NCBI GenBank assembly: GCA_937139605.1 | Contig: CAKZQG010000007.1 | Location: 111,298-175,297 of the forward strand | Reading direction: 5' to 3' | DNA length: 64,000 nt | From: an uncultured bacterium | GTDB lineage: Bacteria > DRYD01 | In this document: in pieces, positions 50,353-53,536 of the stretch | Layout of the letters: each line of letters begins with the position of its first letter | Position numbering within the stretch: position 1 is the stretch's first letter | Program-made: the position numbers and the translations under genes | The notes under the pieces: generated by a model | The model's database searches: none | Seen by the model: the letters and a program-made list of their open reading frames with translations, nothing else | Told to the model about the DNA's origin: nothing

Positions 50353-50623
50353 ATATTAAAAATAACATCATTAAAAAATTTTTATTATCTTTAAAAATAA
50401 AAATAAATTTATAATAAAATTTTACAAACAAATATTTTTAAATTAATTTATTGATTCTTTCTCTAAAAATCCTATATTTTATCTATTCTTCCAAAACACA
50501 TTAAAGGACTCAAATTAAGAAAAAAACCCAAAACCCTCTAACTTACAAAAATATAAGATGCTTTCTAAGCTATTTTTATTCCTATTACAAAAATCTATTT
50601 AAATTTGCTTTATTTACTTCTAA

Positions 50624-51010
50624 TTGTTATTTTTTAACTTTGTTAATAATAATATTATAACTCTCCCTACTAACCAAGTAACCATCCGCTGTAACAATAG
50701 CCCTAGTGATAATACTTTTGAATTTGATTTATTTTATAATATAAAAATAGTTGAGTATTGTCAAGAAACGCATACTAAAATACATGTTGTTACCCAATTT
50801 GATGAAGTACAACCAAAAAGAATAATTACAAGTTACAAATGGTGCGATGATGATAATATAAATACTTGCATAGAGTATACCAAAAAGGCCATAGAAAGAG
50901 ACTATGGAAAAGTTACAGATTTTAAAGTTATTAAATGTTATAAACAGGAATGGAAGTTAGTAATAGAAGTATCATTTATAGACATTCCAGATATTATTAA
51001 AAAATCTTAA
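50624..51010 (+). pseudogene. Probable 3' gene remnant, unknown family
   Basis: 128-codon open frame with no internal Met, only a TTG right after an in-frame TAA, and no convincing RBS. Confidence 0.35.
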
Positions 51011-51044
51011 TCACACTAAAATAAATAAAAACAAACTAAATTAA

Positions 51045-51300
51045 TAAAAATAGATTTTTAATTTTCTTTAATAGGAATTTTTCCCCTAATTTCTTTTCTA
51101 TTTCAAAACATGCATAAAATTAAAACATTAAAAAGAAAAACCAAAAAAACCTAAAAAGTATATAAAAAAGTATCCTTCATATAATAATAATAAACTTCTA
51201 GCTAAAACTGTTCTCTATAGTTATTAACATAAACTAACTCTTAAAAAAATAAGCAAAATTAAAATTAAAAATATCAGAATACTATAAAAATATTATTAAC
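51045..51300 (-). pseudogene. Decayed second copy of small membrane-protein gene
   Basis: YREQF*LEVYYYYMKDTFLYTF*VFLVFLFNVLILCMF* aligns to YGERFWKEIYYYYTLWEGRTFFIFFLGVVSILFSIFYFYTY from 51326-51500, period about 267 bp. Confidence 0.6.
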
Positions 51301-51325
51301 TTTAGTTTTTTTTTATTAACTTATT

Positions 51326-51792
51326 TTAGGATTTCTTTGTTAGCTTCTTCTTTGTTTCAGAATATGTATAAAAGTAAAATATTGAAAATAAAATACTCAC
51401 AACCCCTAAAAAGAATATAAAAAATGTTCTTCCTTCCCATAAGGTATAATAATAATAAATTTCTTTCCAAAACCGTTCCCCATACTCACTAATATAAGCT
51501 AACAGTTAAAAAATAAACCAAAAATTACAATCAAAAATGTCATAGTAACATAAAATCTAAGTAATAAATTCCTTTCATGTATGTTATAAATTTTCTTATT
51601 AAGGTTAGCATTAATTTCTGCAATAAAAAAATTGATAATAAAGCCCACAACCATTGATACTCCCTTTCTATAATATTTTCTATATTTTCTCCATATTTTT
51701 CCCTCCTCTAAAAGCTTATCTGACATATTTAAAAATTTTTCAATATAAGAAGGATATACAAAAAAATAATAAGAAAAAGTAAAATTATTCAA
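51326..51792 (-). pseudogene. Small membrane-protein gene, apparently frameshifted
   Basis: ORF 51499-51792 ends ...VTMTFLIVIFGLFFNC*; the adjacent shifted frame continues LLAYISEYGERFWKEIYYYYTLWEGRTFFIFFLGVVSILFSIFYFYTYSETKKKLTKKS*. Confidence 0.5.
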
Positions 51793-51886
51793 AGAATCCT
51801 AGTCCTGAATAAATACTACATGAAAATAGCATCCCCCCTGACCCCCTTCCACTCACTTGCTTTTTAAACTATTTTTTAAAATAAGT

Positions 51887-52507
51887 TTAAAAAATTTTTA
51901 TTTTTAAAGGTTGTTTAGATTTATTTTCTATTTTTAAATAATAAATATTATCCTTTTCAATTATTTGACTAGGGAAAATACTTAAAAAAAGTATTTTAGA
52001 ATCTTTAGAAAACATAACATAATGAAAAACCTCAGAATTACTAGACCAAAAAGCAGGCAAATCTAAATAATGTATATATTAATCTAAATAATGTATATAT
52101 TCATTTGTATTTAAATGCGCTTTTAAATGTATTAAACACTTCAACTCATTTTCAATATCCCTATAATCTATAGTTCCTTGAAATTGATTATCTATTAATT
52201 CTAAGGTCTTAAACCCCTTATAATCATAAGTTTGTATCTGTTTGATATTAGATTTTTGGAAAGGAAATATTAAATTTATTTTATTTCCTCTTAAAGGGGT
52301 TTTCAGCCAAAAATTAGATCTATAGGTTAAAAATGAGTAAACTTCAATATAAACGTTATTTTGAAAATATATATAAGTATTAACTTCTTTCAAATTAATA
52401 GAATACGGTGGTAAATCCAAATAAAATATATCTACTACAAAGTAAATTATCAAAATTAATACAATAGATATAATAAACAATATAAATTGTCTATTATTTT
52501 TAACCAT
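51887..52507 (-). pseudogene. Membrane-anchored protein interrupted by a 21-bp tandem duplication
   Basis: N-terminal TM ORF stops at 52079 (TAA); the same frame continues YIHYLDLPAFWSSNSEVFHYVMFSKDSKILFLSIFPSQIIEKDNIYYLKIENKSKQPLKIKIF* to 51887. Confidence 0.75.
52060..52101. repeat. 21-bp exact tandem duplication
   Basis: AATCTAAATAATGTATATATT at 52060-52080 and 52081-52101. Confidence 0.95.
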
Positions 52508-52670
52508 AAAAAATCTTCCTATTTATTATTTTATAATTTTGTTACTAATTTTCCTTAGAGAAAAACTTCAAAATTTATTGACAAAAATCAATAAAATTAA
52601 GAAATATTTTATATAAAAATAAAAAAAAATAAAAACCCAAAGAGGAAAGCTCAAAAAAAAATAGAATAAC

Positions 52671-52676
52671 TATAAT
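52671..52676 (+). promoter_or_regulatory. Possible -10 box for small exported peptide gene
   Basis: TATAAT 4 nt upstream of the left inverted-repeat arm; no clear -35. Confidence 0.35.
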
Positions 52677-52680
52677 ACAG

Positions 52681-53048
52681 TGGGAGGGTTAGGTTTTATT
52701 AATAATTTATTTTCTACTATCTTTTTTCATATTTTATATCCCGCTTTTTATATTATATCCAAAAGTATGCTTAAGGAGGTGTTTTTAATTTGAAAACTTT
52801 AAAAGCTGTTCTTTCTTTAGCAGCTTTGACAACTGTGTTATTTTCTTATAATGTGTTTGCTTCTTGTCCTTGCGATCCCAATGATCCAGGAGATGGAGAT
52901 TGTCAATCATTAATATCAAAAGACTGTCCAAATTGTCCAGATGATCCAGAAGATGGTTATATCTTAATATCAAAAGACTGTCCAAATTGCCCAGATGATC
53001 CAGAAGATGGTTATATAGCTTAATAAAGACTACTCCCTAACCCTCCCA
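52681..53048. repeat. 13-bp perfect inverted repeat flanking small peptide gene
   Basis: TGGGAGGGTTAGG at 52681-52693 and CCTAACCCTCCCA at 53036-53048. Confidence 0.85.
52790..53023 (+). CDS. Small exported Cys/Asp-rich repeat peptide
   Basis: TTG start after AAGGAGGTG; signal peptide MKTLKAVLSLAALTTVLFSYNVFA; then CPCDPNDPGDGDCQS and two copies of LISKDCPNCPDDPEDGYI (54-bp tandem repeat 52910-53017). Confidence 0.7.
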   Translation: MKTLKAVLSLAALTTVLFSYNVFASCPCDPNDPGDGDCQSLISKDCPNCPDDPEDGYILISKDCPNCPDDPEDGYIA

Positions 53049-53200
53049 AAAGACTATTTTCCCTAAATTCTGTTTTCATTCTTTTATGATTCGCCTATTT
53101 TTTATATTAGTTATTTTTTGATTTTTTAAAAAAGGATTTTGCTTATTTTGTGATTAATAATATAAAAGAAGATTATATACTAATAAAAGGAGTGTTGAGA

Positions 53201-53536
53201 ATGAGAAGAGATTTAAAAAATATAGATGACCCAATAATAAAGGATATTTTAGATCTGTTAATTCCAATACAAGATCCAGAATTAGGTCTAAGTATAGTAG
53301 ATTTAGGATTAGTATATGATATAAGATACGATTTAGATAAAAAGGAACTAGAAATAGATGTAACATTAACAACGCCATATTGCCCATGGGGAGATGCTAT
53401 GCTAAACCAAATAGAAGAAGCAGTAAAAGGATACAAAGGTTTTCAAAAAGTTAGTGTAAACGTAGTATGGGATCCCCCATATAATCCAATGGAAATGGCA
53501 GAAGATTACATAAAAGAAATGATAGGTCTTTACTAA
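53201..53536 (+). CDS. DUF59/MIP18-type metal-sulfur cluster assembly factor (SufT-like)
   Basis: LLIPIQDPELGLSIVDLGLVYDI...VTLTTPYCPWGDAMLNQIEEAV; start by ATG after AAAGGAG. Confidence 0.87.
   Translation: MRRDLKNIDDPIIKDILDLLIPIQDPELGLSIVDLGLVYDIRYDLDKKELEIDVTLTTPYCPWGDAMLNQIEEAVKGYKGFQKVSVNVVWDPPYNPMEMAEDYIKEMIGLY

Follow-up and report, generated by a model that had tools for sequence, protein, structure and literature searches.

What is encoded by a short, cysteine-rich reading frame with a tandem repeat, and why should the ends of its predicted message be complementary to each other? These questions are raised by a locus within a 64,000-nucleotide stretch of bacterial DNA, referred to here as the window. 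A preliminary description, made from the letters of the window alone, regarded the frame as a translated gene for an exported Cys/Asp-rich repeat peptide of no recognised family, placed it directly before a SufT-like Fe–S assembly gene and left its role open between metal binding, a disulfide-rich structure and a multi-core peptide precursor. It also called for the number of repeats to be compared in related strains. Here, we report a comparative analysis of the gene, its relatives and its message, and weigh the possible functions of the peptide. All features of the gene and its message are given in window coordinates and lie on the plus strand.

The reading frame and its translation signals

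The gene (52790..53023) opens with TTG and encodes 77 amino acids. Its Shine–Dalgarno (SD) sequence, AAGGAGGTG, was read from the sequence at 52773..52781, eight bases upstream of the TTG, and a strong SD precedes the gene in all six family members, five of which are homologues in other genomes. In its own genome the gene is present as a single copy. Compared with its homologue in G001, a member of the same genus (g1), the window peptide is 79% identical, with a dN of 0.107 and a dS of 0.616 (dN/dS of about 0.17), and dN is lower in the mature part. These values indicate that the ORF is a real gene with its frame under purifying selection, and the initial view of a translated, TTG-started 77-residue product with a strong SD is upheld.

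The start codons of the six members are TTG, TTG, GTG, GTG, GTG and probably ATT, the last being the candidate with the best SD spacing in G004 (locus L026); none is ATG, which opens 19 of the 21 SD-supported ORFs elsewhere in the window. A putative −10 box, TATAAT (52671..52676), was read by its agreement with the consensus, with TATAATACAGTGGGAGGGTT also present in G001, and would place the transcript start at about 52682. It has no good −35 element and is absent from the list of the consensus scan. An intrinsic terminator was sought for the gene and none was found.

Distribution of the family

The peptide gene is present in all six genomes examined of its taxonomic family, among them all four species of a sister genus (g2). 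The comparison of repeat number across these relatives gave a range from one to five units, with five in G002, three in G003, one in G004 and four in G005. The peptide was not detected in the one further genome of the order, which is 73% complete. Six exact peptide words were looked up across 84,980 species and occurred in just two, both of them group members; in 386 genomes, searches with a profile and with single sequences found no homologue beyond the family, only short Cys-knuckle look-alikes. Five matches from outside the family were opened and rejected as homologues, being two bL33-like, one cytochrome-like and two zinc-ribbon proteins; the many outside matches of 360–400 residues are, judged by length, presumably DnaJ. 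Plasmids, phages and viral contigs yielded no relative of the peptide when searched. No family was assigned in Pfam or NCBIfam above the curated cut-offs, or in PHROGs at a clearly significant E-value, as the first reading had anticipated, and no report in the literature matched the peptide motif or the contigs. On these comparisons, the gene represents a coding family that is taxonomically restricted, undescribed and apparently exported. The family is new, and each of its ingredients has known analogues.

Of seven genomes, six have a reverse gyrase that scores over the NCBIfam cut-off; these are the six members that carry the peptide, and they are therefore likely to grow at high temperature. 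The reverse gyrase of the window's own genome (G000, contig C38, 3412–6849) and those of other family genomes look like full-length bacterial enzymes, pointing to hyperthermophily.

Protein anatomy and repeat units

The N-terminus, MKTLKAVLSLAALTTVLFSYNVFA (52790..52861), is a probable Sec signal peptide. Read by eye, it has a basic N-region, a hydrophobic core and a small residue at −1, with cleavage likely after VFA, and a signal-peptide-like N-terminus recurs by eye in all six homologues. This recurrence supports the proposal of an exported Cys/Asp-rich repeat product; the peptide would be exported and its signal removed. Of the 53 residues of the mature part, seven are Cys and 14 are Asp or Glu, bearing out the composition first noted. 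The mature part begins with a diverged, Cys-rich first unit, SCPCDPNDPGDGDCQS (52862..52909; from translation and alignment), which may be a degenerate repeat unit, and continues with unit 1, LISKDCPNCPDDPEDGYI (52910..52963), and unit 2 (52964..53017), whose protein sequence is the same as LISKDCPNCPDDPEDGYI. Tandem Repeats Finder places a 54-bp array at 52910–53025 with a score of 209, which no other of the window's 22 arrays reaches. As was described at the outset, the two units differ at only two synonymous positions, T/C at unit position 27 and C/A at position 54.

When every member was split before K[DE]CP, a common architecture became apparent: a signal peptide followed by n copies of K[DE]CPxC...[AS], with the C-terminus coinciding with a unit end. 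A or S terminates 22 of the 23 segments (a count that includes the end of the signal peptide and the C-terminus) and K comes next, although A and S together make up only 13% of residues. In G002 the successive segments are MKKIIITVSFGALIAVLGLGGLIA, KDCPNCPDDGLIIS, KDCPNCPDDGYLA, KDCPNCPDDGYLA, KDCPDCPDDDGYLA and KDCPDCPDDGMVA. The unit consensus is K[DE]CPxCP(D/T)DG-Y-hydrophobic-[AS]; one CPxC knuckle per unit and the acidic flanks or loop are constant across the family. Unit length is 18 residues in the window and in G001, the last unit of G003 is truncated, and G004 consists of a signal peptide and a single unit, nothing more.

The window species and G001 share the unit-specific synonymous sites at positions 27 and 54, and the unit duplication thus predates the split of the g1 species. 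The amino-acid differences between the two species (S/A and N/S) occur in both units, which indicates that the g1 units are homogenised or selected to stay identical. AlphaFold gave no usable fold (pLDDT 44–48), and a search of solved structures returned nothing better than an E-value of 0.068, with only weak matches to zinc-knuckle, ribosomal and similar structures.

A predicted stem between the ends of the message

A 5′ arm, TGGGAGGGTTAGG (52681..52693), lies a few bases past the TATAAT and is predicted to pair with a 3′ arm, CCTAACCCTCCCA (53036..53048), just after the stop codon, as identified by helix computation, folding and shuffles. In the window the arms form a 13-bp helix, and in all six species a purine/G-rich arm that precedes the SD matches, by complementarity, a C-rich arm shortly after the stop. 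The uninterrupted helix energies for the window species (G000) and G001–G005 are −24.8, −19.3, −24.3, −15.5, −27.4 and −15.5 kcal/mol, respectively, and shuffled flanks equalled the observed helix in 0, 2, 1, 49, 0 and 30 of 3000 cases. By these counts, the closing stem is strong in four species (0–2 per 3000) and moderate in the related G003/G005 pair (30–49 per 3000). The same flanks of 94 control genes, taken from the window and the fetched loci, gave a mean of −6.4 kcal/mol with a standard deviation of 2.5 kcal/mol; one pair reaches −18 kcal/mol via a long G.U-rich run.

Folding of the predicted messages retained the closing stem at 37 and 65 °C, and at both temperatures the pairing probability in the window is about 1 over most of the 5′ arm. 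The arm sequences diverge between lineages while their complementarity is kept, with both sides changed in seven of nine core pairs. Of the core-pair cells, 97.8% pair, compared with 42–60% in slid controls, although these counts are biased upwards because the arms were picked for complementarity, and the comparison with shuffled flanks gives a fairer estimate. The stems of G001 and G002 contain G.U pairs, so the stem fits RNA rather than DNA. Clamping of the mRNA ends by this predicted stem is strongly supported computationally. An Rfam search of the window returned two tRNAs and nothing else.

Sequestration of the SD by the 3′ arm was considered but is not supported, since the arms lie outside the SD and masking them barely alters its accessibility: the SD opening energy changes little and in no consistent direction across species, except that losing the 5′ arm alone brings a slight SD opening cost in most species. 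The small effect of masking favours protection of the message over an on–off control acting through the SD.

Bacterial precedents for end-to-end mRNA pairing block translation initiation (PMC6733600; PMC3868564). Pairing between the 5′ and 3′ ends prevents translation of hok and aapA mRNAs, the SD being trapped in the case of aapA (PMC6733600); in the icaR mRNA of S. aureus, a 3′-UTR UCCCCUG motif pairs with the SD region and creates an RNase III substrate (PMC3868564). The messages of the present family resemble those of hok and aapA in that a short ORF is predicted to be enclosed by a stable, covarying stem between the message ends, and that of icaR in a C-rich 3′ motif that pairs with the 5′-UTR. 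However, the 3′ arm pairs here with a separate upstream arm rather than with the SD region, the SD lies outside the arms and is hardly affected, and the product is not a hydrophobic toxin.

Genomic neighbourhood

In the window, a SufT-like FeS_assembly_P gene (PF01883) begins at 53201, directly downstream of the peptide gene as first reported. A link to SufT and Fe–S assembly was nevertheless rejected, as this adjacency is confined to the window: two unrelated ORFs separate the two genes in G001, and the SufT-like gene is not beside the peptide gene in g2. Gene names there were read from translations; the peptide gene is convergent with lpxA in G003, G004 and G005, and lies between pilin and transhydrogenase genes in G002. 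Among the flanking genes examined, no conserved partner, maturase, protease, transporter, metal gene or regulator is common to both genera. The neighbourhood is not conserved and thus offers no evidence for an Fe–S role or a local maturase.

Several further features of the surroundings were observed. The interval from a nicotinate phosphoribosyltransferase-like gene to the SufT-like gene (window 50353–53200; locus L002, 4573–6725) is a variable island that holds different small ORFs in the two species of the genus, three in the window and two others in L002, the peptide gene alone being common. A perfect two-copy 21-bp tandem repeat lies at window positions 52060–52101, at the 3′ end of a minus-strand ORF (52079–52507). 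Beside the G002 peptide gene stand two adjoining genes (locus L003, 278–1573) whose products are type IV pilin-like and have the N-termini of prepilins.

Proposed function and alternatives

The peptide probably takes part in metal or thiol chemistry beyond the cell. Our preferred reading, to which we assign a probability of roughly 0.4, is that the family consists of exported acidic polythiol peptides that bind soft metal ions and are made from stable, end-clamped mRNAs. Removal of the Sec signal peptide would leave one to five acidic units in the envelope or in the secreted fraction. Each CPxC knuckle, flanked by Asp/Glu, would be a site for a soft or transition metal ion, with one ion per knuckle or ions shared among knuckles; the unit copy number would set the metal capacity, one unit apparently being enough in one species. 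In favour of this reading are the purifying selection on the frame, the presence of the gene throughout the family, the constant CPxC and acidic flanks at varying unit number, and the likeness to zinc-knuckle profiles below threshold; the lack of a predicted fold and of a conserved neighbouring metal gene or regulator speaks against it. A site built obligatorily from two knuckles (Cys4) of the same chain is disfavoured, because some members have an odd number of units and one has a single unit. The stem joining the extreme 5′ end to the post-stop sequence would shield the short, AT-rich message, most likely against decay that depends on free ends when temperatures are high. In this reading, we infer the export of the peptide, its binding of metal and the protection of its mRNA.

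The nearest profiles, both below threshold, are the DnaJ CXXCXGXG domain (PF00684; 25.6 bits for the best relative against a cut-off of 32.7, the window protein being unmatched) and the NUDIX zinc ribbon (PF09297; 20.0 against 24.8). The likeness lies in repeated CxxC knuckles by Gly/Asp turns, but the peptide has no GxG after the knuckle, is probably exported, varies in unit number and carries no flanking domain. The bacterial metallothioneins SmtA and BmtA are small, Cys-rich and cytosolic, without a signal peptide or identical tandem units. The peptide resembles them in size, cysteine content and its proposed role as a metal buffer, but differs in its signal-peptide-like N-terminus and identical tandem units, and no sequence relation was seen.

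The phased units also suit a precursor that is exported and cut at each A/S–K junction into 13–18-residue CPxC peptides acting as a signal, metallophore or antimicrobial. The near-invariant A or S before K and the homogenisation of units, from both the shared synonymous sites and the paired amino-acid changes, speak for it, and a single-unit species exists. In yeast α-factor precursors a single pheromone is present in several copies, and the present chain shares with them a signal peptide, near-identical homogenised units and a copy number that varies between species; it differs in having no known processing site or protease, a possible cut being read from the A/S–K pattern. However, tandem duplication by itself would give phased units, the last unit of G003 is truncated, the units of the window and G001 have 18 residues rather than 13, and the two genera share no neighbouring protease, transporter or modifying enzyme. 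Compared with RiPP or multi-core loci, phased core units after a leader are present and a modifying enzyme is absent among the flanking genes examined, so the multi-core option of the preliminary description gains from the phasing and loses from the neighbourhood. We regard such a precursor as rather unlikely; its fuller version, a secreted multicopy precursor of a hyperthermophile whose one to five CPxC peptides capture metal or signal and whose mRNA is looped by the covarying stem, is unlikely. Much the same holds for a disulfide or redox peptide, in which CPxC would form a local disulfide or exchange thiols and disulfides in the envelope. CPxC is a thioredoxin-like active-site pattern, no even unit count is required and the protein is probably exported, but there is no thioredoxin fold and the very acidic flanks are left unexplained. 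Moreover, a search for three families, DsbA, VKOR and DsbD, found none above cut-off in seven genomes, which are incomplete MAGs; this counts against a redox role and mildly favours free thiols for metal over disulfides.

Two further explanations start from the paired arms. A message regulated as in hok, aapA or icaR, silenced by end pairing until processing and possibly part of a type I toxin locus, is improbable: long-distance 5′–3′ pairing is established in those systems (PMC6733600; PMC3868564) and all members have weak start codons, but the arms leave the SD uncovered, masking has no systematic effect on its opening cost, an antisense promoter does not rise above the shuffled background, and the peptide itself is acidic and exported rather than a small hydrophobic toxin. 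Of the hallmarks of a type I toxin, only the end pairing is seen, and that as a prediction; SD hiding, a hydrophobic product and an antisense promoter above background are lacking. A one-gene mobile cassette with terminal inverted repeats would explain the inverted arms that flank the gene and its different location in the two genera, but this is very improbable and largely refuted. There is one copy per genome, the arm has a single exact occurrence in its own genome, the G.U pairs of G001 and G002 suit RNA and not DNA, and, beside lpxA, the arms of G004 are unrelated in sequence to those of G003/G005 yet complementary.

Significance

The messages of this family are distinguished by a covarying 5′–3′ stem that would enclose the whole short message and leave the SD unaffected, unlike in hok/aapA and icaR, and an end-clamped mRNA of this kind is a simple and testable design. 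The searches described here located the peptide in every genome examined within its taxonomic family and in none beyond it. This family-wide yet restricted occurrence suggests that the peptide probably serves something particular to a hot-environment lifestyle.
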